Assembly: GCA_026702755.1 (NCBI GenBank)
Contig: JAPPBX010000098.1
Coordinates: forward strand, 1-49,352
Direction: 5' to 3'
Source: Candidatus Poribacteria bacterium
Lineage (GTDB): Bacteria > Poribacteria > WGA-4E > WGA-3G
Length of the DNA: 49,352 nt
Positions 725-46,593 of this stretch are shown piece by piece. Each line of letters starts with the position of its first letter. Positions within the stretch are counted from its first letter, which is position 1. The notes under the pieces are model-generated. The model was not told where the DNA came from, ran no database searches, and saw only the letters and a program-made list of their open reading frames with translations. A program made the translations under genes and the position numbers.

Positions 725-1750
725 ATGTATCGTGTCGGTATCATCGGGTTAGGCAGTATCGCCTCCCGCTATTCAACACCAGATGACGCTGCCCCCTATT
801 GTCACACGGGCGGCATCCGTTTTTGTGAAACGACTGAATTGGTGGCAGTTGCGGACATGTCTACTGAACGCCAAGAAGAATTCCAGCAAATTTGGGGACC
901 CGCTTTTCCAGATAACTCCATAAACTATTACGAAACAGATACACAGATGCTTGAAAGCGAGGATTTAGACATCGTCGCTGTCTGTGTGCGCGGACCGCAT
1001 CATTTCACGGTGATGCAGAACGTTTTAAAGGCGGACATCAAAGCCATCTTCCTTGAAAAACCGGCAGGATGTTCCCTTGAAGAAGTTGACACCATGACAG
1101 CGGGTGCTGACGCGAAAGGCATCCCTATCGTTGTCGACTACACACGGCATTGGGGACCACACCTCATCCGCCTCCAATCGCTCATCAAAGACGGACTCAT
1201 CGGTGAGGTGCAAACCGTCATCGGCTACTGCGGCGGCGGTGTGCTCTCTTTCGCTATCCACACAACGGACATGATCTGTCAGTTCGCTGGCTATGATCCG
1301 GTTGCGGTGACTGGATTCGTTTCTGGCGGTGGGGATGTCCCAGAGCCTTACGAACCTGAACCCGCGATTGTCGGTTCAACGATTCAATTTGAAAGCGGTG
1401 CTATCGGTTTTCACGTTGGAAATCATGGTACGCGAGGTGGATTTTCCGTTGATGTTCTCGGCAGCGAAGGAAGCGTTCAGACAGGATTTTACAGTGGAGC
1501 GACTGTGCATAAAGGCGGTGAATTGATTGATAATGCGACCCTTGATCTCCCCGAAAATGCCAGTCCGTTCAAAGTCGCGTATAAACAGATTACGGACTAC
1601 CTCGATGGTGGCCCCTTCCCTGATTGTGCACGGGACGAGTATACGGCTGTCAACGAAATTGGATTTGCTACGATCGAGAGCAGCTTAACTGGACAAACAA
1701 TACAACTCCCGTGTCAGAACAGGAAACGACTCATCTTCGCGAACGGTTAA
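725..1750 (+). CDS. Gfo/Idh/MocA family oxidoreductase
   Basis: NAD(P)-dependent oxidoreductase of the Gfo/Idh/MocA family, expected to act in the cytoplasm on a sugar, inositol or related polyol; the substrate cannot be read from sequence. The N-terminal Rossmann fold has the dinucleotide motif GIIGLGSIA at residues 5-13, and the family signature E-K-P lies at residues 111-113 (Lys112 is the usual catalytic or substrate-contacting lysine). A C-terminal beta-sheet domain follows. At 341 residues it has normal family length. The ATG follows AAGGAG at good spacing and a promoter at 664-692. It is the first gene of an apparent operon, 12 nt before the UGA-containing selenoprotein B-like gene, with a second family member as third gene. 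Family assignment is secure; the reaction is not. Confidence 0.92.
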   Translation: MYRVGIIGLGSIASRYSTPDDAAPYCHTGGIRFCETTELVAVADMSTERQEEFQQIWGPAFPDNSINYYETDTQMLESEDLDIVAVCVRGPHHFTVMQNVLKADIKAIFLEKPAGCSLEEVDTMTAGADAKGIPIVVDYTRHWGPHLIRLQSLIKDGLIGEVQTVIGYCGGGVLSFAIHTTDMICQFAGYDPVAVTGFVSGGGDVPEPYEPEPAIVGSTIQFESGAIGFHVGNHGTRGGFSVDVLGSEGSVQTGFYSGATVHKGGELIDNATLDLPENASPFKVAYKQITDYLDGGPFPDCARDEYTAVNEIGFATIESSLTGQTIQLPCQNRKRLIFANG

Positions 1751-1762
1751 TACGGAGTGTGC

Positions 1763-2485
1763 ATGGCATCTGTATGGAAACTTGATCGTCTCTCTCGATT
1801 CTTTATGAAGTTTTACGGTGGTCGGCGGTATCAAACATCTCCTAACACACCGCTGCGCTTACCGTTGAATGAATGCAGCGTCGCTCTCATTACAACTGCT
1901 GGTTTTTTTCTTGATGGACAGAATCCTTTTGAGAAGGGAGATTGTTCGTATCGTGAGATTCCAAATTCCATTCCGACCCAAGCACTCATAAATGGACATA
2001 AAAGTGCGGCTTACGATGAACGCGGCATCGAAATTGATCCGAACCTTGCATTTCCACTTGATAGATTCAGAGAGTTGGAGACCGAAGGTCAAATCGGATC
2101 ACTCAACGATAGACACTTCAGTTTTATGGGATCAATTACAAAACCGCAACGCCTCATTACGCAAACCGCCCCTGAAGTTGCACAGATGCTTAAAGCGGAT
2201 GGTGTTAACGTTGCTTTCTTAACCCCTGTGTGACCGATGTGCAATCAGTCTGTAGGATTGATACAACGTGCTGTTGAAGAGGCGGGAATTTCCACAGTTT
2301 CGATTACGCTTGCTGAAGGTATGACTCAGAAGATAAAACCGCCGCGTGCGTTAGCCGTGCCATATCCATTTGGACATCCGCTCGGTGAACCGAACAACCC
2401 AGAGTTGCAACATGCGATTATCGCTGAAGCACTTGCGCTCTTAGCGGATGAGACACCACCCCCTATCCTTAAAAATAAAAAGTAG
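1763..2485 (+). CDS. GrdB/PrdB-family selenoprotein B-like protein (UGA = Sec157)
   Basis: Resembles the selenoprotein B family of glycine/sarcosine/betaine and D-proline reductases. The frame runs unbroken through a TGA at 2231-2233, giving 240 residues if the TGA is read as selenocysteine, close to PrdB length. The TGA is followed by P-M-C and then NQSVGLIQRAVEEAGI, so it lies in a U-x-x-C redox motif where this family has Sec or Cys, and a hairpin fitting a bacterial SECIS follows (2244-2262). The start is ATG 1763, 5 nt after GGAG; a GTG at 1757 would lack that site. Neighbours are two Gfo/Idh/MocA dehydrogenases in the same operon, and no PrdA or GrdA/C partner is present, so it is unlikely to be a classical Stickland reductase. 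Gene callers would split it at 2233. The alternative is a nonsense mutation, which would not explain the motif and hairpin. Confidence 0.8.
2231..2233 (+). other. In-frame UGA read as selenocysteine
   Basis: The codon sits between V156 and P158 of the selenoprotein B-like gene, in the order V-U-P-M-C-N-Q. Reading frame and family similarity continue on both sides. Other genes in the window end at TGA (for example 4425-4427 and 5567-5569), so UGA is not generally reassigned. Confidence 0.72.
2244..2262 (+). promoter_or_regulatory. Putative bacterial SECIS element
   Basis: A 7-bp stem pairs 2244-2250 (AUCAGUC) with 2256-2262 (GAUUGAU), including one G-U pair, and closes the loop UGUAG. Seventeen nucleotides separate the UGA from the loop, and a G is the second loop base. 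Both fit the known loose rules for bacterial SECIS elements, which lie inside the coding region and bind SelB. Confidence 0.6.
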
Positions 2486-2530: not shown

Positions 2531-3592
2531 ATGGATAAATTTAAAGTCGGTATTATCGGATGTGGTGGCATATTTCGTAGCCTCCACGCGCCATATTACC
2601 AAGAACCGACGCGCCGTGCGGACATCGTCGCCATCGCTGACATCAACGAAACATCTGCAAACGAACAAGCAGATCAATTCGGCGCAGATGTCTATACAGA
2701 CTACCGTGCACTCCTCGATAGACAGGATATAGATGCAGTCGATGTCTGTGTCCATCCGCGCCCGCATCTCGAAATCACGCGTGCTGCCGCCGCTGCAGGC
2801 AAACACATCTTGATGGAGAAACCGATGTGTTGTAGCGTCGCAGAAGGCGAGGAAATGATTGCTGCCGCTGAAGAGGCGGGGGTCCTCCTGATGGTTGCTT
2901 ACATGATGCGGTTCAGTCCGGGACATAAGAAGCTAAAATCGCTATTAGATGATGGCACGCTCGGCACACTACAGATGGCGTATTCCAATCAGGTCGGTTG
3001 GTTCTCACCGGAGCGGCATCCATGGCTCTTTGTGAAGGCAGAATCTGGCGGTATGTTGGTGGAGCAAGCGATTCACGAACTCGATATCTGGTTGTGGTTA
3101 TACGGTCCTGCCTCTACTGTCTACGGGTTCACAAGCCATGTTCCGCTCGGCGGTACATATCCACCTGCCGAGGACGCTGTGGAGAACAATGCCGTGCTGA
3201 CCGTGCATTTCAAGAGTGGCGGTGTCGGTATGATGATTAAGAGTTGGGCATCTGAGATTCGGAACAGCGGTAACGGTCTGGTCACCAGCAAAGGTTCCGC
3301 GACGTTGATTCACAATGGACTCCGTTGGAAAACCCACGATATGGCATCTGAGGAGGAATTCACTGCTCCTGTGCCAGATGATGGTACCTATCGCAATATG
3401 CCAGAAGAGCGGCGTGAACAGCGGTATTGGGGTGTCGCGGCGAAAGGGGCAAGTATCGACCATTGGCTGCAATGCATCGCTGGTGAAGCGGAGCCAACAA
3501 CCCACGGATGCATCGGGAGAGACGGTATAGAGCTGGCAGAGGCGACGTATCGTTCCTCGCAGATCGGCGCACCGATTTCGTTGCCACTGTAG
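2531..3592 (+). CDS. Gfo/Idh/MocA family oxidoreductase
   Basis: Second Gfo/Idh/MocA-type NAD(P)-dependent dehydrogenase of the operon, 353 residues. The Rossmann motif VGIIGCGGIF is at residues 6-15 and the signature E-K-P-M is near residues 97-100. The C-terminal half has the usual substrate domain (HELDIWLWLYG region). The ATG follows AAGGAG with 7-nt spacing and lies 45 nt after the selenoprotein stop, so co-transcription is likely. The two dehydrogenases of this operon are clearly different in sequence and are not a recent duplication. Cytoplasmic polyol or sugar oxidation is likely; the substrate is unknown. Confidence 0.92.
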   Translation: MDKFKVGIIGCGGIFRSLHAPYYQEPTRRADIVAIADINETSANEQADQFGADVYTDYRALLDRQDIDAVDVCVHPRPHLEITRAAAAAGKHILMEKPMCCSVAEGEEMIAAAEEAGVLLMVAYMMRFSPGHKKLKSLLDDGTLGTLQMAYSNQVGWFSPERHPWLFVKAESGGMLVEQAIHELDIWLWLYGPASTVYGFTSHVPLGGTYPPAEDAVENNAVLTVHFKSGGVGMMIKSWASEIRNSGNGLVTSKGSATLIHNGLRWKTHDMASEEEFTAPVPDDGTYRNMPEERREQRYWGVAAKGASIDHWLQCIAGEAEPTTHGCIGRDGIELAEATYRSSQIGAPISLPL

Positions 3593-3755: not shown

Positions 3756-4427
3756 GTGGTTAAGGTTACAAGAGGAGAATTTTTAAAATACTACGATTCA
3801 GCAGTTTATTCGGCCAAGCTACGGGTTCCCAGATCGGGTCCCAACTTAGCTGTGATAAATACTGCGCGCATTAATGACGCTGTTTCTTATGGGCGGAACG
3901 TTTATGCTATTGCCCTGGATCTTTTAGTTGATAGGCGTGCCGCTAATATGGTGCAACATGAGGTGTTCTGTCGCACTATAGAGCAGACTTACAATTTTTC
4001 TGTCGCCGATGTGTGGCGTGGTAACTCGCGCTGGGAAGGTCTTCAAAACCTCACTATAGCTGCCGCAGTTGATATTCTGTGTTTACCTGAAGAAAATAAC
4101 CCACTCTCGCGCCCATTGATTGGCGGTGCACAATTACTGGGTGAGGTGAACAGTAAATGGTGGGGGATGTTGGCACTGACCTTCCGACTCAGAGGTTTGC
4201 TCGAATTTCAGGTAGGGTGCCTCACTGTTTTAAAAAAGCCTCTCCAAGAGATAGCGGAATGCCTTTCTAAGCCAGAGACTGAAATTCAATTGCTGTATCG
4301 AACAACCATCACGGAAATAAAGAACGCTATTGACCAGTGGGCGCAAACCGAGATTTCAGCAGCAAACGAACGTTTCACTGAAGTCGAGGAAATCAAAAGA
4401 CACTACGATTACGGGAGGACATTATGA
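3756..4427 (+). CDS. Conserved-context protein of unknown function
   Basis: A 223-residue protein I do not recognise. It has no signal peptide and no clear membrane segment. The C-terminal third (about residues 160-195, around LKKPLQEIAECLSKPETEIQ) looks helical and could form a helix-turn-helix, but this is only an impression. The start is the weakest part of the call: GTG 3756 has GAAGG only 3 nt upstream, and no better in-frame start is visible. The stop overlaps the next gene's ATG by 4 nt (ATGA), which indicates translational coupling with the Gfo/Idh-like protein and a shared role. Confidence 0.62.
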   Translation: MVKVTRGEFLKYYDSAVYSAKLRVPRSGPNLAVINTARINDAVSYGRNVYAIALDLLVDRRAANMVQHEVFCRTIEQTYNFSVADVWRGNSRWEGLQNLTIAAAVDILCLPEENNPLSRPLIGGAQLLGEVNSKWWGMLALTFRLRGLLEFQVGCLTVLKKPLQEIAECLSKPETEIQLLYRTTITEIKNAIDQWAQTEISAANERFTEVEEIKRHYDYGRTL

Positions 4428-5569
4428 GGATCGGTGTCGTTTACTCTGGGGAACAGATACAACCGTGGCTATTTCGTGCCTTGTATCCTGTTCAATTGCG
4501 TGTAAACTGCATCGCAAATTCCAGTGTCATTCCCGAAAACCGTGTTCGTGTTGAAGAGTTCGCATCATTCTTCGATTGTGATTTCTTTGAGAGCCCTGAA
4601 GAGATGTTCAATACAATGAAGCTGAAGTTAGATGGCGTTATCATTGTCTCAGACGAGATGGCAAGCGTGCCGCGTGCCCAACTCATTGAATCTGCACTTG
4701 CTGCGGGTATCAATGTCTTGGCTCCGCCCCCCCCTGGCTCTTTAGAAGAAGGACTCCACCTTGCTGCAGCATCAGAAAAATATAAACGGCTTGTTATGAC
4801 AGGAACAAGGTTCATATTTGGTCGGTGTATTCAGGAAATCTTACGTATTGTCAGCGATTCCGGATTCGGAATTATTCAGGACATGCGGTTCTTGCTCGGA
4901 ATCGGACGCGTGCCGTATTTAAACGACTTGTTGAAGTTCGGAGACTCACATTTCCAGATCGTTTTTGAGATAGTCCGCCGGCTCTTTGTAGAATATACGG
5001 TGCTGCCTGAAGAAGCGACCGTAATGGCTTCCAAAAATGGAGCACCGAACATCGCCTGCACTCTCAGATTTCCGCAGGGTGCACTTTGTACTTTCTGCCA
5101 GACCTCTAATCGTCAATGGGGAAACGACTCGTATCATAAAATTGAAATTACTGGCGGTGCCTCTTACATCTGGAGCGACCTGCGGACTTGGAAATGCTTC
5201 TCTACGGAGAATACTTTCAGGATGGGCGGCGGAGATGAAGAAATTTCGGCGAATATACAAGGCTCCTCCGGTCAACTTAACGAGTTCTGTTTAGCTATTG
5301 AAGGCAATCGTGAACCTTATGCGGGCACGCTCCGGAGTACTTTGCCCGCTCTATGGTTCCGAGAAAGATTACAAGACTGTATCGAACATGGACAGACGAG
5401 TCTAAAACTGAGTGAAATTCGTGCTAACTCAGATGCTGAGATTCAACGCCTGACATCTCAGCTCGATGTTGATCCACAGAATAGAGAATACCGACGTCAG
5501 AAGGCACTGCTCTTAGGTAAACGTGGTGATTTCTCCTTAGCACTTGCCGAGTACCACCAAATCCTGTGA
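4424..5569 (+). CDS. Degenerate Gfo/Idh/MocA-like protein with C-terminal TPR-like tail
   Basis: A 381-residue protein with the outline of the Gfo/Idh/MocA fold. The N-terminal strand MRIGVVYSGEQ replaces the usual G-x-G-x-x-G loop, and the position of the E-K-P signature holds a proline run (APPPPGS, about residues 101-107). Catalytic lysine and the nucleotide loop thus seem lost, so it may bind a ligand or partner rather than act as a dehydrogenase. The last ~40 residues (DPQNREYRRQKALLLGKRGD onward) resemble one tetratricopeptide repeat. It is translationally coupled to the upstream unknown gene. The fold assignment is moderate and function is unknown. Confidence 0.7.
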   Translation: MRIGVVYSGEQIQPWLFRALYPVQLRVNCIANSSVIPENRVRVEEFASFFDCDFFESPEEMFNTMKLKLDGVIIVSDEMASVPRAQLIESALAAGINVLAPPPPGSLEEGLHLAAASEKYKRLVMTGTRFIFGRCIQEILRIVSDSGFGIIQDMRFLLGIGRVPYLNDLLKFGDSHFQIVFEIVRRLFVEYTVLPEEATVMASKNGAPNIACTLRFPQGALCTFCQTSNRQWGNDSYHKIEITGGASYIWSDLRTWKCFSTENTFRMGGGDEEISANIQGSSGQLNEFCLAIEGNREPYAGTLRSTLPALWFRERLQDCIEHGQTSLKLSEIRANSDAEIQRLTSQLDVDPQNREYRRQKALLLGKRGDFSLALAEYHQIL

Positions 5570-5661: not shown

Positions 5662-6750
5662 ATGAGTGAGAAAACCGCGACTCAGATGCAGAACGTTACC
5701 AGGGATATTATCGGTGAATCAGCACAGATGCAAGAGGTCTTTCGATCCGTAAGTTTAGTCGCCCCTACAGAAGCAACTGTTCTCATTACGGGTGAAACAG
5801 GCGTTGGCAAAGAGATTATCGCGCAAGCCATTCATGACAATAGTCCCCGTAAAAATAATCCGTTCAAAGTAATCAACTGTGGAGCGTTTTCGCCAGAACT
5901 CATTCAAAGCGAACTCTTTGGACATGAAAAAGGGGCTTTTACCACTGCTATTCGGAAGCATCACGGTATATTTGAACAGGCAAACGGCGGCACCTTGTTC
6001 TTAGATGAAGTCAGCGAGATGTCGCCTGAAGTCCAAGTAAAATTTCTGCGTGTACTGGAGCAGCAAGAATTTTCACCGGTCGGTGCGGAAGACATCATTG
6101 AGGTGGATGTCCGAGTGGTCGCCGCAACAAACAGGAACCTTAAAACCGCAGTGAGTAGAAAAAGATTTAGGGAAGATCTCTATTATCGACTGAACCTTTT
6201 TCGTATTCAGATTCCACCGCTCCGTAACAGGCGTTCGGACATCGCGCCTTTGGCGCATGATTTTGTCTCCCAATTAAGCGAAGGTTACGATAAACTAATC
6301 ACCGGTATAGCCCCGGAGGCGGTTAAATATCTTCAAAATATTAATTGGTACGGTAATGTGCGAGAGCTCAGAAATGTCATAGAAACCGCACTTATCTTTG
6401 CAGAAAGCGAAGAATTAAAAAAAGAGGATGTCGAAACAGCGATAGAAAACCTAAATGAACCTGACGAACACTCAGATACTCAATCGGAAGCGTTTAGAGA
6501 TTCATTCTCTGGCGAAGTAGATCCTTCACAAGAAGCTAATGGGGACTCGCACATAACACCTGAAGATGTCAGGGGTAGATTATTGGAACTCGTCCAGACC
6601 GGAACAATCTCCGAGATAACCTCCTATATTAGCCTTATGCGGTATGAGGCAGAAATTCCGCATTACACCAAACGGGAAATTGCTGAACGACTCCAAATAT
6701 CTGTGCCGACCTTGGATAAATATTGTGCATTGGCTGAGGAAAACACATAA
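5662..6750 (+). CDS. Sigma-54-dependent transcriptional activator (AAA+), GAFTTA variant
   Basis: Bacterial enhancer-binding protein of 362 residues. After ~20 N-terminal residues the AAA+ domain starts directly, so there is no receiver, GAF or PAS sensor domain. Walker A is GETGVGK at 44-50, Walker B ends in D115-E116, and the sigma-54 contact loop at 91-96 reads GAFTTA rather than GAFTGA. Arginine-rich sensor and RELRN motifs (NWYGNVREL near 227-235) follow. A C-terminal segment (TKREIAERLQISVPTLDKY) is a helix-turn-helix different from the usual Fis type. RBS AAGGAA precedes the ATG. A consensus sigma-54 promoter lies 335 bp downstream (7085-7100), a plausible target. Function as an activator depends on whether the altered loop still works. 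Confidence 0.88.
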   Translation: MSEKTATQMQNVTRDIIGESAQMQEVFRSVSLVAPTEATVLITGETGVGKEIIAQAIHDNSPRKNNPFKVINCGAFSPELIQSELFGHEKGAFTTAIRKHHGIFEQANGGTLFLDEVSEMSPEVQVKFLRVLEQQEFSPVGAEDIIEVDVRVVAATNRNLKTAVSRKRFREDLYYRLNLFRIQIPPLRNRRSDIAPLAHDFVSQLSEGYDKLITGIAPEAVKYLQNINWYGNVRELRNVIETALIFAESEELKKEDVETAIENLNEPDEHSDTQSEAFRDSFSGEVDPSQEANGDSHITPEDVRGRLLELVQTGTISEITSYISLMRYEAEIPHYTKREIAERLQISVPTLDKYCALAEENT

Positions 6751-9895: not shown

Positions 9896-12790
9896 ATGAA
9901 AACGTTATTTGTAAATCGAAATGTAATCGTGTCAATTTTCGCGGTATTGATGTTGACATACGGCATCCAAGGCATTAGTTATGGTCAGGACGCACCGGAC
10001 ACCATTGTGGAATTCGCTGATGCGAATTTAGCGAGAGTAGTCCGAAAAGCATTAGGTCTTCCTACTGGAGATGGTGTTGATCTCCTCAAAATTCCAAAAG
10101 CGGAATTGGAAAAACTGACAGAGTTAAGGGCTAGTGGTAAAAAAATAACTGATCTCACTGGCTTAGAAAATGCGACACAACTGATGGAGTTACACATTAG
10201 AGTGAATAACATCAGTGACATAACCCCACTCGCACAACTCACACAATTGAAGAGGTTAGATCTCAGTTATAACCAAATCGGTGACATCACCCCGCTCGTA
10301 CGACTTGCGCAGTTGAAGACGTTAAATCTCAATCGTAATCACATCCGCGACATCACCCCCTTGGCACAACTCACACAACTAACAGGGTTAGAGCTTGATA
10401 GCACGCAAATCAGTGACATAACCCCGCTCACACAACTCACACAACTGAGGGGGTTATACCTCTTGTATAATCAAATCAGTGACATAACCCCGCTCGCACA
10501 ACTGACACAGTTGGAGACGTTATTTTTCATTAGAAATCAAGTCAGTGACATAACCCCGCTCACACAACTCACACAACTGAGGGGGTTATACCTCTCGTAT
10601 AATCAAATCAGTGATGTCACGCCTCTCGCGCAACTGACTAAACTGACAGAGTTGAACCTTCGGGATAATCTAATCACGGATGTCACGCCTCTCACAGGAT
10701 TGATATTTCTTGAAAGATTAGAGCTTCGGCGTAATCCAATTTGGTCTACGTACCCACTTAATGCGCTCTTGGACGCGAATCCAAATGTGGATTTAGATAT
10801 TGAAGTAACGGATGCAGTGCCATTCCCTATGACAGAAGCAACGTCGAAAGGTGGCAAAGAATTACGAGTGCTAATTCCAGAATTACAGCAGCAACCGATG
10901 TTTTGGGTAAATACTGACACCGGTAAAATAGAGTCGTCTGGACACTTTGATGTTGTTACGCAAGGAGTGACGGTTTTAACCGTGGATAGAGCGGGTAGCA
11001 AGCTCTACTGGGGCGAACGTAGTCAAAGTGGCGGTGTCATTAAACGCGCAAACTTTGACGGAACAAACGTTGAGGCACTCGTTACACTATCAAACGTTCC
11101 TCGCGGTATTGCTATTGACGCTATAGGGAACAAATTGTATTGGACGAACTCGGACTTGCAAATCCAGACCGCGACCCTCAACGGTGAAAACATCAGCACC
11201 ATCATCCAACTTGAGGAAGATATACTTGAAGAAACGAAAAAAAGTTGTAGTTCCGGCTTCACTTTCTTTTTATTTTTTATTCCCATTGGGCAGACGACAG
11301 GAGAATGCAGCACGGAAACAGTCCGCCTCAATCTGACTTCGCCAACAGACATCGCCGTGAACACAGTGGATGGCAGGCTGTACTGGACAGAATTTTCTGG
11401 TCGTATCCGGCGTGTAAACCTTGATGGCACCGGTCTTGGTACACTTCTACCCGAGATAGGAAGTCCTTATGGGATCGTCGTGGTGGATGACAAGATTTAT
11501 TGGGCAGAGGAAATAGGTGAGCATTCCGGTAAGGTCCAACGCGCGAACCTTAACGGCACAAACATTGAAACACTTGCCACGGTACAAGGGCTGCCTACTG
11601 GCATTTCTGTTGATACTGCAGCGGGTAAGGTGTATTGGGCAAACTCACTTGGCGGAATCCAGCGAACGGATATCAACGGTGGTGAAGTTGAAGTTGTTGT
11701 CTCAGGCATAGCTGCCCCGGGAGACTTCGTATTGGTTCCAAGCGTACGACCAACAACACCGACGACAGCCACCACAGATGCCACAGTTAACATCTCACCC
11801 GCTTCAGTGGCATCACCTGCTGTTGGGGAACAGATAACCTTCAACCTGAACATTGCAGGTGGCGAAGCAGTCGCAGGTTATCAGGCAACCGTGCAGTTTG
11901 ACACAACTGCGCTGCGTTATGTCTCAAGTGCCAATGGCGATTATCTGCCTGCCGGTGCGTTCTTTGTGGAGCCGAAAGTGGAGGGTAATCTCATAAAACT
12001 CAACGCTGCATCCCTCGCTGGAGAAAGCAGTGGGGATGGCACCCTCACCACACTCACATTTGAAGTGATTGCAGTGAAGGGATCTACTTTGACATTATCT
12101 GATGTGCTGCTAACTAATAGTGCTGGTGAGGGTTTTGTGCCAACGGTTGAAAATGCAGAGATAACTGAAGCAATTCAACTCACAGGAGACATCAACGGTG
12201 ATGGTATTATAAACATTCAAGATTTGGTACTGACTGCTTCAAATCTCGGAAAAACAGGACAGAATCCGGCAGATGTCAATGGGGACGGATCTGTCAATAT
12301 TCAGGATCTCGTCTTAGTCGCCGGGGCATTAGGGACAAGTGCCGCCGCACCTTCTCTGCATCCGCAATCTTTGGAAACGCTCACTGCTACAGAGGTCAAA
12401 CAGTGGCTATCCGCTGCACAGCACTTAGACCTCACGGATACAACGTCACGGCGCGGTATTCTGTTCCTACAACAACTCCTAATAACGCTGACACCTAAAG
12501 AGACGGCACTACTTGCTAACTACCCAAATCCGTTCAACCCTGAGACGTGGATACCCTACCACTTGGCAAAGGACGCGGATGTTACACTGCATATCTATGC
12601 CGTGAATGGGACATTGGTGCGGACGTTGATACTGGGATATCAAGCTGCGGGGATGTATCAAAGCCGTTCCCGTGCGGCGTATTGGGATGGTAGAAACGCC
12701 TTCGGTGAACCTGTAGCAAGTGGTGTCTATTTCTACACGCTTACCGCAGGTGATTTCACCGCTACTCGCAAAATGCTCATCATGAAGTAG
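9896..12790 (+). CDS. Secreted LRR / YWTD beta-propeller / cohesin / dockerin protein
   Basis: A 964-residue exported protein. A signal peptide ends near SYGQ (about residue 31). Internalin-like 22-residue leucine-rich repeats of the form DITPLAQLTQLxxLxLxxNQI run from about 75 to 290. A YWTD/LDL-receptor class B type propeller follows (about 350-610, repeats such as KLYWGERS, KLYWTNSD, RLYWTEFS, KIYWAEEI, KVYWANSL). Then come a cohesin-like domain (about 627-745), a dockerin-like pair (DINGDGIINIQDL and DVNGDGSVNIQDL, about 763-820) and the C-terminal sorting domain (about 871-964). The start follows AAAAGGAG. LRR and propeller modules suggest binding of proteins or glycans at the cell surface; the exact ligand is unknown. 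Confidence 0.9.
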   Translation: MKTLFVNRNVIVSIFAVLMLTYGIQGISYGQDAPDTIVEFADANLARVVRKALGLPTGDGVDLLKIPKAELEKLTELRASGKKITDLTGLENATQLMELHIRVNNISDITPLAQLTQLKRLDLSYNQIGDITPLVRLAQLKTLNLNRNHIRDITPLAQLTQLTGLELDSTQISDITPLTQLTQLRGLYLLYNQISDITPLAQLTQLETLFFIRNQVSDITPLTQLTQLRGLYLSYNQISDVTPLAQLTKLTELNLRDNLITDVTPLTGLIFLERLELRRNPIWSTYPLNALLDANPNVDLDIEVTDAVPFPMTEATSKGGKELRVLIPELQQQPMFWVNTDTGKIESSGHFDVVTQGVTVLTVDRAGSKLYWGERSQSGGVIKRANFDGTNVEALVTLSNVPRGIAIDAIGNKLYWTNSDLQIQTATLNGENISTIIQLEEDILEETKKSCSSGFTFFLFFIPIGQTTGECSTETVRLNLTSPTDIAVNTVDGRLYWTEFSGRIRRVNLDGTGLGTLLPEIGSPYGIVVVDDKIYWAEEIGEHSGKVQRANLNGTNIETLATVQGLPTGISVDTAAGKVYWANSLGGIQRTDINGGEVEVVVSGIAAPGDFVLVPSVRPTTPTTATTDATVNISPASVASPAVGEQITFNLNIAGGEAVAGYQATVQFDTTALRYVSSANGDYLPAGAFFVEPKVEGNLIKLNAASLAGESSGDGTLTTLTFEVIAVKGSTLTLSDVLLTNSAGEGFVPTVENAEITEAIQLTGDINGDGIINIQDLVLTASNLGKTGQNPADVNGDGSVNIQDLVLVAGALGTSAAAPSLHPQSLETLTATEVKQWLSAAQHLDLTDTTSRRGILFLQQLLITLTPKETALLANYPNPFNPETWIPYHLAKDADVTLHIYAVNGTLVRTLILGYQAAGMYQSRSRAAYWDGRNAFGEPVASGVYFYTLTAGDFTATRKMLIMK

Positions 12791-13802: not shown

Positions 13803-16088
13803 ATGAAAACGTTAATCGTAAATGGAAAGTCCCTTGTGCTTATCTTAACTATTCTCTTGGTAACTTTTGGAACGCAGCGGAGTTACGCACAAACGATAAC
13901 TGCCTCAACTCCACACCCCTTAACAGAAGCAACACTGCATGGAAGTGTGATCACACTCACACTCAGCGGTGGAACTTACGAGCGGTCTGTTTGGAATATC
14001 AGAGATGCCGTGTCAGTGTCCGGCATTGTGGGTGTAACTGTTGAAAGGTTCGATGTAGAGCGCGTCAGTGACACCAAGGTGGCAGTTGAATTGACATTCA
14101 ATGGTGACTTTGACACCAATGCAACGCTTACATTCGCCCTCGGTGCAGACGCAATCGTAGGATATAACGGACCCGCGCTTACCACACGAGTTCTTGTCGC
14201 TGCGATGCGGGAATCGCTCGTCGCATCAACAGAATCTCCTTTGACAGAAGCGATTCTTCATGGAAGCGTGGTAACACTCACGCTCAGCGGTGCTACTTAC
14301 GAAGGGGCTTCTTGGAACATTGAGAGAGCATTGACAGTATCTGGTATTGAAGATGACACTGTTGAATTTGATATAGGGATCGTGGGGGACCCAACAGGAA
14401 TCGAGATTGAAGGGATCCCTATTGAAAACTTTGATTTGGAGGACCTCGGTGATTTGGCAGAATTTGACATTGGAAATGTCCCTGTTTTAACCTTTGACGT
14501 GGAACGCGTCAGCGATAGAGAGGTGACTGTTACATTACTATTCTCCGGTGATTTCGATACCGATACGACCCTCACCTTCACTCTCGGCGCGGATGCAATA
14601 TCGGGATACAACGGATCAGCATTCATTGCCGAAGTTCCTGTCACTGCGGTAGAGGAGTCATTAGTTGCATCAACGGAATTTCCCCTGACAGAGGCGACAT
14701 TGCCGGCGGAACTACCATCAAGCCCCACGCCCGCACTCAGTGAGGGGATTAGTGTCGTCACACTCACACTCAAGGGACGGCGGTTCACCGAGTATAGTTG
14801 GGAACTTGGAGAGGCTTTGAAGGTATCCGGCATTGATGGGGTCACATTTGAATCATGGGATGTGGCGCGCATCAGTGACACAGAGGTAGCCGTCCCCCTG
14901 ACTTTCAATGGTGACTTTGACACCGATGCAACTCTTACTTTAACTATTGGCGCAAGTGCAATAGCAGGCTATAATAAGGCGTTCACTGTCCAAGTTCCTG
15001 TCACTGCGGTAGCGCAATCGGATGCCACGGTGAGCGTTTCACCCTCTCCAGTCCTATCGCCGGCTATCGGAGAGCAGCTCACACTTTCCCTCAACATCGC
15101 TAATGGAAAAAACGTCGCAGGCTATCAAGCAATCGTGTTGTTTAATGGTTCCACCCTTGACTACGTGAAAAGTGCAAACGGAGACTATCTACCAGCAGAT
15201 GCTTTTTTCGGAGATCCGATTATTGTTCACGACTGGTTAGGAGACACATTTTTCGGGGACTACATGTGGTCTGGAAAGGTGATACTCGCCGCAACCACAT
15301 CCGGTGGTGCAGCGAACGGGGACGGCACACTTGCCACCCTCACGTTTGAAGTTCTTGACTATAAAGCATCCAGGGTGACCTTATCCCAAGTCTACCTTAT
15401 AGATTCGGATGGAAAGCGGTGGGAAACTGCCATTGAGAGTGGAGAAGTGATTGAACCACCTGCACCGGCAGAAGCAATCTTGGGAGATATCAACCGCGAC
15501 GGTGCCGTGAACATTCAAGATTTGGTGATTGTTAGTGCCCGCTTTGGTCAGACAGGACAGAATAGTGCTGATCTCAACGGTGATGGTCTTGTGGATATCG
15601 TTGACCTTGTGCTTGTAGCAAATGCTTTCGGTGCGGATGCGGCTGCACCATCGTTGAATCCACAGATATTGGCACAACTCACCGCTGCAGAGATCAAAGG
15701 GTGGTTGAATCAGACACAGCAGCTATCGCTCACTGATCCGGCATACCTACGCGGCATTACCGTGCTGGAACAACTCCTTATGGCACTAACTCCCAAAGAG
15801 ACTGCACTACTTGCTAACTACCCAAATCCATTCAATCCGGAAACGTGGATACCGTATCACTTGGCGAAGGATGCGGAGGTTACACTGCATATCTATGCCG
15901 TGAATGGACAATTAGTGCGGACGTTGACACTGGGATATCAAGCTGTGGGAATGTATCAGAGTCGTTCGCGTGCGGCGTATTGGGATGGCAGAAATGCATT
16001 GGGTGAACCTGTAGCGAGTGGTGTGTATTTCTACACCCTCACAGCAGACGATTTTACTGCCACGCGTAAGATGCTGATAAGGAAATAA
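13803..16088 (+). CDS. Secreted protein with three unknown repeats, cohesin, dockerin and sorting domain
   Basis: A 761-residue exported protein. The signal peptide ends near SYAQ (residue 30). Three copies of a ~105-residue module follow (about 31-135, 139-283, 283-405; frame words LTEATL.GSVVTLTLSG, FDVERVSDT, TLTFTLGADAI.GYNG). The middle copy is enlarged by an acidic insert rich in the motif IEFDIG. Then come a cohesin-like domain (about 407-549), a dockerin-like pair (DINRDGAVNIQDL, DLNGDGLVDIVDL; about 560-613) and the sorting domain (about 669-761). The same module occurs eight times in the protein at 20718-25280. The start follows GAAGGAA. The repeats look like beta-sandwiches of an adhesin stalk, but I cannot name the family. 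Confidence 0.88.
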   Translation: MKTLIVNGKSLVLILTILLVTFGTQRSYAQTITASTPHPLTEATLHGSVITLTLSGGTYERSVWNIRDAVSVSGIVGVTVERFDVERVSDTKVAVELTFNGDFDTNATLTFALGADAIVGYNGPALTTRVLVAAMRESLVASTESPLTEAILHGSVVTLTLSGATYEGASWNIERALTVSGIEDDTVEFDIGIVGDPTGIEIEGIPIENFDLEDLGDLAEFDIGNVPVLTFDVERVSDREVTVTLLFSGDFDTDTTLTFTLGADAISGYNGSAFIAEVPVTAVEESLVASTEFPLTEATLPAELPSSPTPALSEGISVVTLTLKGRRFTEYSWELGEALKVSGIDGVTFESWDVARISDTEVAVPLTFNGDFDTDATLTLTIGASAIAGYNKAFTVQVPVTAVAQSDATVSVSPSPVLSPAIGEQLTLSLNIANGKNVAGYQAIVLFNGSTLDYVKSANGDYLPADAFFGDPIIVHDWLGDTFFGDYMWSGKVILAATTSGGAANGDGTLATLTFEVLDYKASRVTLSQVYLIDSDGKRWETAIESGEVIEPPAPAEAILGDINRDGAVNIQDLVIVSARFGQTGQNSADLNGDGLVDIVDLVLVANAFGADAAAPSLNPQILAQLTAAEIKGWLNQTQQLSLTDPAYLRGITVLEQLLMALTPKETALLANYPNPFNPETWIPYHLAKDAEVTLHIYAVNGQLVRTLTLGYQAVGMYQSRSRAAYWDGRNALGEPVASGVYFYTLTADDFTATRKMLIRK

Positions 16089-16345: not shown

Positions 16346-19300
16346 ATGAAAACGCTAACCGTGAACTGGAAAACCGTACTGTCAATCGTTACAGCGGTGT
16401 TGTTAATATACGGTATACAAGGTACAGGCAACGTGCAAGCACAAGACAACGCACCTGAATTGACACCGGTCAGTGACCGGACGCAGCAGGTTCAAGATAC
16501 GATTGTTGCCTTGGTGCCGGGTGTAGATTCCGCTAACGATGTAACCGCTGCACACCTATCTTTAATCACCAACCTTAACCTGAGTGATCAGAGCATTACC
16601 GCACTGAAAACTGGCGATTTTGATGGATTGTCGGCGTTGCGTTCGCTTTCTTTAGCGAAAAACACGCTGAGCAGTCTGCCAGCAGGTATCTTCTCAGGTT
16701 TGTCTGCCATGAGTAGTCTTGACTTAGGTAGCAACGAACTCAACAGTCTACCCAATTCGGTCTTTTCTGGACTCTCTGCCCTGAGCAGGCTCAACTTGTC
16801 CTATAACAGCTTGGATAGTTTATCGGCAAATACATTCTCTGAAATGACTGCGTTGACGGGGCTTGATTTAGGCAACAACCAACTCAGCAGCCTGCCAGTA
16901 GATATCTTTTCTGGGCTCTCTTCACTGAACTGGCTCAGTCTGTCTTCCAATCAACTCAGCAGTCTACCCAATGGTCTCTTTTTCGGACTCTCTTCGTTAA
17001 ATTCGCTCTATTTGGGCGACAACACCGTTGGTTTATCCATCACTGTATCTCTGGAGAAGGTTGGCGAAAACCAGTTCAAGGCAACAACAGCCACTGGTGC
17101 ACCTTTCAATATCGTGTTGCCGGTTACCGTTACAAATGGAAGTATTGATGGCGGTGCAACCACCATTACACTTGCCGCTGGCAGCGTAGAAAGCGAACTC
17201 CTCACCGTGATCCCCACCCCCGGTACATCAGATGCTGCCACCGTAGATATTGGCACGCTCCCTGAACTGCCGACAAGCCATTTCGGTTATAGTCTGAGCA
17301 AACCGAGCAGTGCTGATAACACCCTCAGTTTTGCGCTCGGTATTCCCAGACCTACCGGAGATCCGAACGTGAATCATGCCCCAATTTTTAGAGAGGGAAG
17401 TAGAACGACGCGATCTGTACCGGAGAATACACCCGCTGGCAGAAACATCGGCAGTCCTGTCACCGCTACGGACCTTGATGAAGATGTCTTGACCTATACC
17501 GTCAGTGGTGCAGATGCAGCCTCCTTTGGTATCATCAGTACAACTGGACAATTACAAACACGGGCACCCCTCGACTATGAAAAAAAGAATACTTACGCCA
17601 TGACCGTGACCGTCTCCGATGGCAGTGCCAGAGATACTATCAGTGTCACGATTGATGTCACGGACGTAGAGGAAAACAACGCACCCGTCTTTGTAGAGGG
17701 CACTGCTACGGAGCGCTCCATACCAGAGAATACACCCGCTGGCAGAAACATCGGTGCCCCCGTCTCTGCTACGGACCTTGATGAAGATGTCTTAACCTAC
17801 AGTCTCAGTGGTGCAGATGTGGCCTCCTTTGGCATCGTCAGCACCACCGGACAGTTGAGAACGCGCGCACCCCTCGACTATGAAAAAAAGAACACCTATT
17901 CAGTGGCAGTCCACGTCTCTGATGGAAATGGCGGAACAGACACAATCGGGGTCGCTATCAACGTCACAGATGTAGAGGAAAACAACGCACCCGTCTTTGT
18001 AGAAGGCACTGCTACGGAGCGATCCATAGCCGAGAATACACCCGCCGGCAGAAATATTGGCAGCCCCGTCACCGCCACGGACCTTGATGAGGAAGATGTC
18101 TTAACCTACAGTCTCAGTGGTGCAGATGCAGCCTCCTTTGGTATTGTCAGCACGACTGGACAGTTATGAACCCGCGCACCCCTCGACTATGAAAAAAAGA
18201 ACACCTATTCGGTGGCAGTTCTTGTCTCCGATGGTAAGGGTGGAACAGATTCCATTGGTGTAGCTATCAACGTCACTGACATAGACGAAACCGCCACAGC
18301 ACATGCGCCGGTCTTCACAGAGGGCAGTGCCACAGAACGCTCAATTCCTGAGAACACGCCTGCTGGCAGAAACATCGGCAGTCCCGTCACCGCTACGGAT
18401 GAGGATGAGGACATCTTGACCTATACCCTCAGTGGTGCAGATGCGGCATCTTTTGGCATCGTCAGCACCACCGGACAATTACGAACGCGCGCACCCCTCG
18501 ACTATGAACAAAAGAACATCTATTCAGTGGCTGTTATCGTCTCCGATGGCACGCTCACAGATACCATCGGTGTTGCTATCAATGTCACAGACGTAGCGGA
18601 GAACAGCGCACCGGTTTTCGCAAGTAGCAGCGCAACGCGATCCATACCCGAAAACACGCCCGCAGGGGTACATATCGGTGAGGCGGTCTCTGCCAAAGAT
18701 GCTGACACCGATGATACCTTAACCTATACCCTCAGTGGCACGGACGCAGCAGCTTTTGACCTTGACGGCACCACTGGACAACTGAAAACCAAAGCCGCGC
18801 TTGACTACGAAACGAAGAATTCCTATTCGGTGACCGTAAAGGCCGCTGACAAGACCCTCACAGACACCATCAGAGTTACAATCATCATCACTGACGTAGA
18901 TGAGAGCAGCGCGCCAGTTTTTGCGGGGAATCGCACGACGCGTCTTGTGAAAGAGAACACGCCTGCTGGTGTAAACATTGGTGCTCCCGTGTCCGCCACA
19001 GACGATGACGAAGATACCTTGACCTATAGGCTTGGTGGCACCGATGCGGTGTCCTTTAGCATCGTTAGCACCACGGGACAGTTGAAGACTCGCGCACCGC
19101 TCGACTTTGAAACGAGGAACGCCTACACGGTAACCGTTACCGTCTCCGATGGCGGGCGCACCGATACCATCACGGTCGCTATCACTATCATTGACGTAGA
19201 CGAAAGGCCTCCGACCACAGATGAATCTCCTCGACCCGCCCAGGTTGAGAGTGTCATCAGCATTAGTGAAATCATGTTTGGCTCAGAAAGACGCTTTACG

Positions 19301-20536
19301 CCGCCGCAATGGATAGAGCTGCACAATGCCGGTCCAGATATCATCAATCTCACAGGATGGAAACTGATAATTCAGAATGTAGACTCAACAGAATTGACCG
19401 GACCCACAACCTGGGATGAACCAGTGGTGAGTGCAACAATCACCTTTGAGGACGACTTCTGGGGGGATGCCCCAAGGATTTGGCCGGATGATGTTGTTCT
19501 GGTGGTATCAAACGAAGATAGTGAAAATTCAAAGAATCTCACTGAAGATCAGATTTATGACCTCCAATGGAGAACAGACCTACCCCTCGGTTTGTGGAGC
19601 ATAATTCTCAGCACGGAAGGTTTCCACATACAACTCATTGATAATGAAGGGAACTTGGTGGACGAGGCTGGGAACTTTAAAGATAATGTGCAGCAATGGC
19701 AATTACCTTATGGAAAAAACAGAGGTAGAACCAGAGACAGTCGCCGGACTTCAATACTCCGCCGCTACGCTAATAGTCTGCCACTTGATGGCACCCAAGC
19801 AGGCGGTTGGATTTCTGCTGTGGACGCGAATTTAACAGCGGAACAACAAACCTACTATGGGGATAAGAACGACATCAGCACCCCTGGTACTGGGATCGTC
19901 GTCAACGAAATTTCCACACAGTTTGTTGAATATGATGTTAATCAGGACGGAGTCGTGAACGTATCTGATCTGGTGATCGTTGCCGGATGCCTCGGACAAT
20001 CCGGGCCCAACGCCGCAGATGTTAACGGCGATGGCATTGTCAATATTCAAGACTTGATACTCGTGGCAGGGGCACTTAGTCAAACACTCGCAGCACCGTC
20101 GCTGCATCCAGCATCACTCGCAATGTTTACCACCACTGATATTCAAGAGTGGTTGGCACAAGCACATGGCTTAGACCTTACGGATCCGAGGTTGCAAAGC
20201 GGCATCCGCTTCTTAGAACAACTCCTATCTGTATTGGTCCCGAAAGAAACCGTATTGCTGCCGAACTACCCAAATCCGTTCAACCCTGAAACATGGATAC
20301 CGTATCGGCTGGCAGAAGATGCTTTCGTCACGGTGACGATCTATGATCAACGCGGAAGGGTCGTCCGTAGACTCAATATTGGGCCCCAAACTGCCGCAGT
20401 CTACGAGAGTCGGTCAAAAGCCATCTATTGGGACGGCAGAAATGAGGTTGGTGACAGAGTCGCGAGTGGAATTTATTTTTATACCCTCATCGCAGGCGAT
20501 TTTTCTGCCACGCGAAAGATGCTCATTCTCAAGTAA
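16346..20536 (+). CDS. Secreted LRR / cadherin / lamin-tail protein, interrupted by an in-frame TGA
   Basis: One continuous frame of 1,397 codons except for a single TGA at 18167-18169. Order: signal peptide; LRRs of ~24 residues (about 75-228, GIFSGLSALxxLxLxxNxLxSLP); six cadherin-type repeats (about 349-951, ENTPAGRNIGSPVTATD ... LDYE ... VSDG); a lamin-tail domain (about 968-1115, ISEIMFGSE... WIELHN); a dockerin-like pair (about 1196-1250); the sorting domain (about 1302-1396). The TGA falls in the third cadherin repeat at GQL-stop-TRAPLDYE, where sibling repeats have Arg (CGA or AGA), so a single C-to-T change explains it. Without readthrough, the product ends at 18169 and the export tail is lost; a second frame could restart near 18212. 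The true start is ATG 16346 after AAAAGGAG. Confidence 0.82.
18167..18169 (+). other. Premature TGA in cadherin repeat 3
   Basis: The fourth cadherin repeat has CGA in the same place (GQL-R-TRAPLDYE), so this TGA is best read as a nonsense change or a base-calling/strain variant. No SECIS-like hairpin with the right spacing is evident and there is no Cys partner, unlike the UGA at 2231. Confidence 0.7.
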
Positions 20537-33512: not shown

Positions 33513-35546
33513 TCAGAATGAAACATTTGATGGAGGTAACTCTTTTAACCACGCAAGATTAAATCGATAATGCTGACGGCTGCTAATCAGATGAATTATA
33601 CCGTTTTGCCCTTGACAAACAGCAAGGTAACCCCCCGGTTCAGCACTGTTTAACCCCATCGTAAAGGGTCGGCCATCCATCGTTTCGATCTCTCGGTCTG
33701 CGCCATCGTCTGTGATCAGGCGAATGTGTTCCCACGTCTCGCCATCGTCATAAGATAACGCGCCGAAGAGCCCGTTAACGAGACGTTCATTCCCAGAAGC
33801 ATCGACGATCGGCATAGGTGTCGGTTCCCTCCGATCCGCTGTGAAGGAGGCGAGGAAAATCGGTCCCTCTTGAAGCTGTAGTAAAACACACCGCTGTCCA
33901 CCGGAAACCACAGGGAACGGACTCGCGCTGTAATGCCACGTCTTACCGCCATCTTCGGAAAGACTTTTCGGCATCCGTTCATCAATCGTATCGCCTCTGC
34001 CATAAGCCATCAACCTGCCATCCGAGAGCTCAACCACAGCCGCGTGAATACCAGCAATCCACCCACCACTTTTTCCTGCAGCAAATTCAGGGATAGGTTG
34101 CCCTGCCCCCGGATCGTACCACGTTTCTCCATCGTCATCGCTAAGCCATATTGCAGTGCCGCCGTCTCCGCCGCTCACAGCATCGCAAGCAAGCAGTATG
34201 GAATCGTCCTGCCTTCGGAAGACCGAGGCAATCGGCATGTGTCGGAGACGATGCTCCGGTGAAATGAAGCGAGGTTTCGACCAAGTTGCGCCGTTATCGT
34301 CGGAATAGCGCATTACCAACGCTAAGGGTCCCCATGTCGCGGCTGCCGAAAGTCCATTGAAATGATAAATTCGTCCATTTTCATTTCGCCAGAGGGATGT
34401 CGCGTGATTATTCCGATCAGGCGGACCCCAGAAAGGCTCGGCAGGATCCCATTCTGTCCCACCAAAACGCAATCGACTCGCGGCGACTGTCAATTCACGT
34501 CCCCGTTCTGTCACGCACGAATACCACGCTGCGAACATATCACCATTCGGGCATTCTGTTATCGCCGGGACGTGATTATGCGCTGAAAAAAGCGGTCCAT
34601 TTGAACCCTCTGGAATTTTAACGAACGTCAGCGGTTCTGCGAAATAAGGTGTCTCCGGTGCGGGTGAACTTGCAGGTTCCTGTTTGACCTCACGTCCCCA
34701 CAACGCCACCTTCGGTGCAGGTGTCGGTGATGTCGGGGGCACTTCACCACAGACAACACGAAACCCGATGTACCAGTGTTTATCTTCAGGCACCGCCCCC
34801 ATCCGATTCGCAGAACGCAGATAACAGAGCAGTGTCGAATGGCTACCACCGCGTGTGACACGATACAGCCCTGCTTCCCTGCCTATCGGATCGACCTGTG
34901 GGTTCGGTTGGTACGGTCCATACCAATCTCGGCACCACTCCTCTACATTCCCGTGCATATCGCAGACACCCCACGCGTTCGGTGTTGTGCGTCCGACATG
35001 CAAAGGTACAATTTCTTCTGTGCCGCGACCCCGTCCACCATCCGGGTACCAACTCTCTCCAACATTTTTATGAAATTCGGGCGGCAATGTATCCCCTGTG
35101 TGAAAATGGGTTGTCGTTCCTGCTCGGCACACATATTCCCATTCTGCCTCGGTCGGCAAGCGATAAGGGAGTCCCTCCTTTTCGGAAAGCCATTCACAGA
35201 AGCGCGTCGCATCGTGCCAATCCACAAAGATAACCGCCTCGTCATCTTCTCGAGAAAAACCGACGTTCCGAAGACTCTGCATCTCACGATGGGTCGCATC
35301 AAATGCCTCATACTGCACATTGGTAACCTGAAAAACGCCGATGTAGAACGGCGTGGTAAGCGTTACCTGATGTACCGGTTTTTCATCAGAATCGCCATCT
35401 CGGAGGTGTGTTCTTTTACTCCCTATTAATTCATCCGACAGTGCCGCGTTTTCTGAACCCATCATAAACGTGCCGGGTTCAATTCTAACGAACTGCATCC
35501 CTATCGAATTTGTATATGTCTGTTCTTCAATCGCCAATTTTCCCAT
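33513..35546 (-). CDS. SUMF1/FGE-like domain fused to a sialidase-type (BNR) beta-propeller
   Basis: A 677-residue protein. The N-terminal half (about 10-275) is a formylglycine-generating-enzyme/SUMF1-type domain (GMQFVRIEPGTFMMGSE, LPTEAEWEYVCRAG, DMHGNVEEWCRDWYG, RGGSHSTLLCYLRSANRMG). The C-terminal half (about 310-675) is a sialidase-like propeller with Asp-box style DDNGATWSKP, DDDGETWYDP and DDGETWEHI. True FGE needs two cysteines in the RGGS region and only one is present, so sulfatase maturation is unlikely; carbohydrate binding or hydrolysis is more likely. The ATG follows AAGGAAGG; a longer frame to 35666 lacks a start signal. A strong divergent promoter lies upstream. Confidence 0.87.
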   Translation of the reverse strand: MGKLAIEEQTYTNSIGMQFVRIEPGTFMMGSENAALSDELIGSKRTHLRDGDSDEKPVHQVTLTTPFYIGVFQVTNVQYEAFDATHREMQSLRNVGFSREDDEAVIFVDWHDATRFCEWLSEKEGLPYRLPTEAEWEYVCRAGTTTHFHTGDTLPPEFHKNVGESWYPDGGRGRGTEEIVPLHVGRTTPNAWGVCDMHGNVEEWCRDWYGPYQPNPQVDPIGREAGLYRVTRGGSHSTLLCYLRSANRMGAVPEDKHWYIGFRVVCGEVPPTSPTPAPKVALWGREVKQEPASSPAPETPYFAEPLTFVKIPEGSNGPLFSAHNHVPAITECPNGDMFAAWYSCVTERGRELTVAASRLRFGGTEWDPAEPFWGPPDRNNHATSLWRNENGRIYHFNGLSAAATWGPLALVMRYSDDNGATWSKPRFISPEHRLRHMPIASVFRRQDDSILLACDAVSGGDGGTAIWLSDDDGETWYDPGAGQPIPEFAAGKSGGWIAGIHAAVVELSDGRLMAYGRGDTIDERMPKSLSEDGGKTWHYSASPFPVVSGGQRCVLLQLQEGPIFLASFTADRREPTPMPIVDASGNERLVNGLFGALSYDDGETWEHIRLITDDGADREIETMDGRPFTMGLNSAEPGGYLAVCQGQNGIIHLISSRQHYRFNLAWLKELPPSNVSF

Positions 35547-35637
35547 AGCCTTCCTTTTCTGTGATTTTGTAAGCAATGCCCAAGTTGCAAATATAGGAGT
35601 TTGGAAGCTGCGCGCTATATTCATGTGCGCCGACGTT

Positions 35638-35666
35638 ATTATAACAACGAATACGCTTTCGGTCAA
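35638..35666 (-). promoter_or_regulatory. Minus-strand sigma-70 promoter
   Basis: TTGACC, 17 nt and TATAAT on the minus strand (-35 at 35661-35666, -10 at 35638-35643). It reads into the SUMF1-sialidase/PhyH/phospholipase group with a leader of about 85 nt. Confidence 0.65.
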
Positions 35667-46442: not shown

Positions 46443-46539
46443 ATTAACAACCCCAAAAATAAACCAATTTTCAACATTCTAAAACAAGAAAAACCCCACT
46501 GAATACATGGGTTTAAAGCGGATTTCCAAAATTATTTTT

Positions 46540-46562
46540 CAATCCCAAAACGACTTATTGCG
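46540..46562 (-). repeat. Right terminal inverted repeat
   Basis: Exact inverted copy of 42728-42750. It is followed directly by the right target copy AAGAACAT (46563-46570). A gene caller extending the sulfatase frame upstream would translate across it, so the first 29 residues of that longer frame are not real. Confidence 0.85.
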
Positions 46563-46570
46563 AAGAACAT
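46563..46570. repeat. Target-site duplication, right copy
   Basis: AAGAACAT, identical to 42720-42727. Confidence 0.85.
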
Positions 46571-46593
46571 TATACAACGAAAAAAGCGGAAAA

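Follow-up and report, generated by a model that had tools for sequence, protein, structure and literature searches.

The locus and its gene neighbourhood

We analysed a window of 49,352 nucleotides from a Candidatus Poribacteria genome (5.84 Mb, 96% complete), meaning by "window" the whole of this stretch of DNA. Near its start, a PrdB-like gene with an in-frame UGA lies between two genes for Gfo/Idh/MocA-type oxidoreductases (Table 1). As the first-pass annotation of this DNA had proposed, a single frame runs through TGA 2231-2233, and it stays open as far as the terminal TAG. A standard ORF call splits the gene at the UGA, so that it is easily missed. Translation most likely starts at ATG 1763 and not at GTG 1757, the start given in the first-pass annotation, as judged from the GGAG that precedes the ATG by 5 nt and from the MAS/MAP N-terminus conserved in relatives.

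Table 1. Features of the PrdB-like locus (positions in the window)
Feature	Position	Strand	Remarks
Upstream Gfo/Idh/MocA-type oxidoreductase gene, operon partner in poribacterial family f1	725..1750	+	341 aa, PF01408 E=9e-15
Probable ribosome-binding site GGAG for ATG 1763	1754..1757	+	direct reading
PrdB-like gene, predicted selenoprotein	1763..2485	+	240 residues, Sec157, stop TAG 2483-2485
UGA codon, almost certainly read as selenocysteine	2231..2233	+	UPMC = UxxC; TGA conserved among relatives
Predicted bacterial SECIS hairpin	2244..2262	+	stem 2244-2250/2256-2262 (7 bp), loop UGUAG 2251-2255, 17 nt past UGA
Downstream Gfo/Idh/MocA-type oxidoreductase gene, operon partner in poribacterial family f1	2531..3592	+	353 aa, PF01408 E=6e-33

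The operon with sugar-type dehydrogenases that was noticed at first is conserved in one poribacterial family only (f1). In 27 loci, 6-13 bp separate the end of the upstream Gfo/Idh/MocA gene from the selenoprotein gene; in 32, the downstream Gfo/Idh/MocA gene is a same-strand neighbour of the selenoprotein gene. This conserved gfo-selenoprotein-gfo order with its tight upstream spacing would suit a protein that depends for its function on the flanking oxidoreductases, as one subunit of a shared complex or pathway, the selenocysteine step then belonging to sugar or polyol metabolism. However, no Gfo/Idh neighbour was seen in poribacterial family f3 (L158) or in the Acidobacteria loci examined, where the selenoprotein gene stands alone and neighbours recur among close relatives only. 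The downstream gap also varies from an overlap to 2 kb, and some loci have another gene directly upstream. The dehydrogenase link is thus lineage-specific rather than a general functional one, and we consider an obligate partnership unlikely.

Several other features of these loci and of the window are worth recording. In loci L040, L051, L057 and L058, the selenoprotein gene is directly preceded by a DNA-methylase-like gene (~1000 residues, identified by its NPPY motif), which in L058 separates it from the Gfo/Idh gene. Positions 3756-4427 of the window encode a 223-residue protein without a Pfam match that is conserved in 9 loci, where it is accompanied by a divergent Gfo/Idh-like protein (4424-5569 in the window) and usually by a sigma-54 activator (5662-6750). 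Successive large proteins (9896-12790, 13803-16088 and 18212-20536) have dockerin and FlgD-like C-terminal domains, combined with cohesin, leucine-rich repeats or cadherin. A formylglycine-generating-enzyme (FGE-sulfatase) domain and BNR repeats are fused in one protein, and a sulfatase is encoded ~11 kb away (33513-35666 and 46507-47946). An intergenic run of 13 G residues is found at 208-220, near the window start.

Relation to PrdB and GrdB

We then investigated the family placement of the protein. The best family model is that of PrdB, TIGR04483 (E=2e-47, aligned residues 31-231 of 242), and the length is PrdB-like. Both would agree with a true PrdB, that is, the selenocysteine subunit of a D-proline reductase, with its PrdA encoded elsewhere in the genome or too divergent to be recognized. 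The score, however, is 161.5 bits against an equivalog cut-off of 300. The active-site motif is UPMCNQS in the Poribacteria-Acidobacteria clade and not the UGTCHRS of clostridial PrdB, and no prd genes adjoin the locus. A tree of 60 sequences contains a 38-member clade of poribacterial and acidobacterial proteins (support 100/96), separate from the clostridial PrdB sequences, which form a clade of their own (99/99).

D-proline and glycine reductases require a pyruvoyl partner derived from PrdA or GrdE. The PF09338 profile covers both of these; an unrelated pyruvoyl partner would escape the search. It matched none of the 84 Poribacteria and neither of the 2 Acidobacteria genomes examined, in agreement with the first-pass remark that a PrdA partner is missing. 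The same profile detected clostridial PrdA/Grd controls, PrdA at E about 1e-24, in a separate search; the search of the 84 genomes had no positive among its own controls. We therefore reject an identity as D-proline reductase, which we regard as very improbable given the cut-off, the motif, the clade and the absence of PF09338.

The protein does belong to the GrdB superfamily, scoring 39.4 bits with PF07355 (gathering threshold 22; profile positions 222-345 of 347). With TIGR01918, the model for glycine/betaine/sarcosine reductase protein B, it reaches 49.8 bits against a cut-off of 65.45, and its 240-242 residues compare with about 430 in TIGR01918 proteins. The initial assignment as a GrdB/PrdB-type protein thus stands at the level of the superfamily and falls at that of the PrdB subfamily. 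The missed PrdB cut-off, the UPMCNQ motif and the absence of PF09338 together suggest that the protein is neither a D-proline nor a glycine reductase, and we are confident, from these comparisons, that it is very probably no pyruvoyl-type reductase of this kind. As a PrdB relative in a phylum where PF09338 is absent, it must work without the known pyruvoyl partner.

Conservation of the UGA codon and the selenocysteine machinery

A PrdB-like homologue is found in 68 of 84 poribacterial genomes. Each of the 66 poribacterial matches across the site (at least 43% identity) contains the TGA; in the other two genomes, the match starts past the site (G017) or is very weak (G006). In the phylum Acidobacteria, 102 of 396 genomes have a match; site-spanning matches of at least 43% identity all have the TGA, while more distant matches are mixed. 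The TGA occupies the identical column in all relatives whose sequences were read out, and the column is Sec throughout the UPMC clade (38/38 members in the tree). In the protein of the window, the UGA is flanked by FLTPV-U-PMCNQ, giving U157-P-M-C160 and confirming the U-x-x-C motif that had been noticed after the TGA. One homologue from Acidobacteria, one from Paraclostridium and two from Alphaproteobacteria have Cys in place of Sec, and the UGA is therefore of the kind expected in selenoproteins, conserved in frame and aligned with Cys elsewhere. Apart from one distant group of paralogues with Ser, the aligned homologues have Sec or Cys in this column, as the first-pass annotation had expected of a selenoprotein of this type.

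Some homologues differ in and around the site. The Ser paralogues (L133, L134 and L136, Acidobacteria) read SRLCHQ, with the downstream Cys retained and no SECIS stem. A poribacterial homologue (L121, G011) has a further in-frame TGA, which precedes the Sec site. In a separate, supported PrdB-like clade of Acidobacteria (L137, L138 and L139), the TGA is found in U-P-x-V-C-H-R, that is, in a UxxxC and not a UxxC motif.

Comparison of the window with 13 relatives gave dN/dS values of 0.05-0.27 before the TGA and 0.09-0.18 after it. Purifying selection is thus equal on either side of the UGA. TGA also terminates the same gene in several relatives; UGA is read both ways inside one gene, and context must decide between the two.

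The genes for selenocysteine insertion, which a selenoprotein in this lineage had been said to imply, are all found in the genome: SelA (598 bits), SelB (351 bits), SelD (356 bits) and, ~120 bp downstream of selB, a tRNA-Sec with anticodon UCA (78 bits). tRNA-Sec is present in 71 of 84 Poribacteria and occurs together with the PrdB-like gene in 62 genomes (Fisher p = 0.002, a statistic that ignores phylogeny). Six genomes have the gene and no tRNA-Sec match; four of these have SelB, and the other two are just 81-83% complete. The SelD gene (L118, G000:C96:159939-160862) itself contains one in-frame TGA, indicating that selenophosphate synthetase is probably a selenoprotein as well.

The SECIS hairpin

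In a bacterial SECIS, a hairpin immediately follows the UGA, and its short apical loop, which lies roughly 16-37 nt downstream, contains a G. The hairpin proposed in the first-pass annotation was found at the distance given there, and its loop, UGUAG, begins 17 nt after the UGA, within this range. A single sequence proves little, because a SECIS-like hairpin follows 1.9% of all TGAs in the window. The folding energy of the single hairpin sequence is average (z = -0.16) and hence uninformative, and comparative tests were used instead.

The full 7-bp stem is present in 55 of 56 distinct poribacterial and acidobacterial sequences. Only 41 +/- 2 full stems are expected when codons are exchanged among sequences sharing the residue in the same column (same-residue shuffle), and 2.0 +/- 1.4 with codons from the rest of the gene. 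Among 36 representative sequences, 99.6% of cells are paired, against 91.4% after shuffling (0/500 as high) and 13-50% in slid positions. Changes on both sides occur in three of the seven stem pairs in the same set, with a covariation score of 0.362 against 0.195 +/- 0.020 shuffled and at most 0.049 slid; kinship among the sequences inflates such counts, for which the same-residue shuffle is a partial control. One stem pair is U-A in some sequences and A-U in others, a switch that goes along with the replacement of Ser by Thr or Ile in the protein. In homologue L129, CSRAVGAA replaces CNQSVGLI, yet all seven pairs are intact. By comparison, the Cys and Ser homologues have only 3-5 of the 7 pairs. 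This pattern over two phyla is hard to explain otherwise, and on the strength of the stem covariation and the codon-shuffle tests we take the hairpin at 2244-2262 to be a real bacterial SECIS, as had been suggested. Searches with Rfam RF00031 on the genome and with all Rfam families on the window gave no match; since RF00031 found nothing in the control genomes either, its silence says nothing about a bacterial SECIS.

From these results we infer that the PrdB-like gene almost certainly encodes a genuine selenoprotein, with selenocysteine inserted at UGA 2231-2233. That the TGA is a true stop (through a pseudogene, a sequencing error or simple read-through), leaving a protein of 156 residues and a defunct ORF after it, would agree with the standard ORF call, which stops there, and with the normal use of UGA as a stop in the lineage, but it is rejected as having a negligible probability, since the TGA is preserved across dozens of separate assemblies, the downstream part is under purifying selection, the SECIS stem shows covariation and the Sec machinery in the genome is complete.

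Predicted structure and proposed mechanism

An AlphaFold model of the protein is confident (pLDDT 86, pTM 0.87), and the predicted fold is an alpha/beta Rossmann-like domain. In this model, residue 157 lies directly ahead of a helix (158-173), and Cys160 follows one turn on. Sequence searches of solved structures gave no real relative and no structure of a PrdB/GrdB homologue; the profile matches, one over 27 residues with a designed homodimer and a weak one of outer-membrane type, were dismissed. Foldseek and VIA-align gave no match with E below 0.001. The top fold matches are LacI-type sugar-binding domains (Z 9.5 and 8.4, ~135 residues, 6-12% identity), a resemblance that we reject as functional evidence because the Rossmann-like arrangement is a common one.

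The most economical reading of the UxxC motif and the homology is a redox role. SelB would bind the hairpin 17 nt past the UGA and deliver Sec-tRNA, and UGA 2231-2233 would be decoded as selenocysteine. The selenolate of Sec157 could then attack a small substrate at an electrophilic bond, or else a bond of disulfide or peroxide type, and resolution of the intermediate by Cys160 would give a selenenylsulfide. The Sec/Cys centre might be re-reduced by a system linked to thioredoxin or NAD(P)H. In family f1, the two Gfo/Idh/MocA oxidoreductases of the operon may share substrate or electrons with the selenoprotein. We lean towards a single-subunit UxxC (Sec/Cys) oxidoreductase, with some reserve. 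As a whole, the reading that we prefer, with a probability of roughly 80%, is that of a genuine selenoprotein, a stand-alone relative of PrdB and GrdB with a Sec/Cys redox centre and without the known pyruvoyl partner.

Significance and comparison with known systems

The PrdB-like selenoprotein is common to most sponge-dwelling Poribacteria and many Acidobacteria. Selenoproteins in Acidobacteria were reported in 2006 (PMC1794560), and our literature search found no report of a poribacterial selenoprotein and no statement that this branch lacks PrdA. SelA and SelB have been reported in most sponge-symbiont bins and in few of their relatives (PMC5649159), and the gene described here provides a concrete product for them. 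Since these bacteria keep the protein and its SECIS in the apparent absence of PrdA, the label "D-proline reductase" is probably a misannotation in the Poribacteria/Acidobacteria branch.

It is already known that UxxC "PrdB" selenoproteins are abundant in seawater, and few selenoprotein families are met more often in seawater metagenomes than the UxxC "proline reductase" (PMC2398784, PMC9402790). A Sargasso Sea survey counted 42 such selenoproteins and 1 Cys form (PMC1088965), the GOS survey 235 Sec and 110 Cys forms (PMC2398784), and in a later marine survey "PrdB" made up 6.4% of selenoprotein genes (PMC9402790). Tentatively, and at less than even odds, the UPMC clade might represent a selenoenzyme family of its own, a single-subunit Sec oxidoreductase that catalyses an undescribed reaction in uncultured bacteria, and might be, in place of proline reductase, the identity of these abundant oceanic proteins. 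The Sargasso Sea and GOS sequences (PMC1088965, PMC2398784) are metagenome fragments without host or partner; compared by label and motif, they share with the poribacterial protein the family label, the type of UxxC motif, the marine origin and the excess of Sec over Cys members.

Proteins of Alphaproteobacteria (Haematobacter, Roseomonas) annotated as "glycine/sarcosine/betaine reductase selenoprotein B family" likewise stand alone, with CPxC at the same position and no reductase partners adjoining. They differ in having Cys for Sec, no SECIS stem and about 33% identity. GrdB, GrdF and GrdH, the selenoprotein B of glycine, sarcosine and betaine reductase, are homologous in their C-terminal part and have Sec in a UxxC motif, but their N-terminal half and the GrdE partner family (PF09338) are absent in the poribacterial case, and the TIGR01918 cut-off is missed. 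PrdB of clostridia, the 26-kDa selenoprotein subunit of D-proline reductase, differs in its motif (UGTCHRS against UPMCNQ), has no 7-bp stem at the homologous place of its gene, belongs to a separate clade and is part of an enzyme with PrdA (PF09338), of which the Poribacteria genome has none. It is nevertheless of the same superfamily over nearly the entire length, with 37-40% identity, a similar size, the same Sec position and the same UxxC motif.
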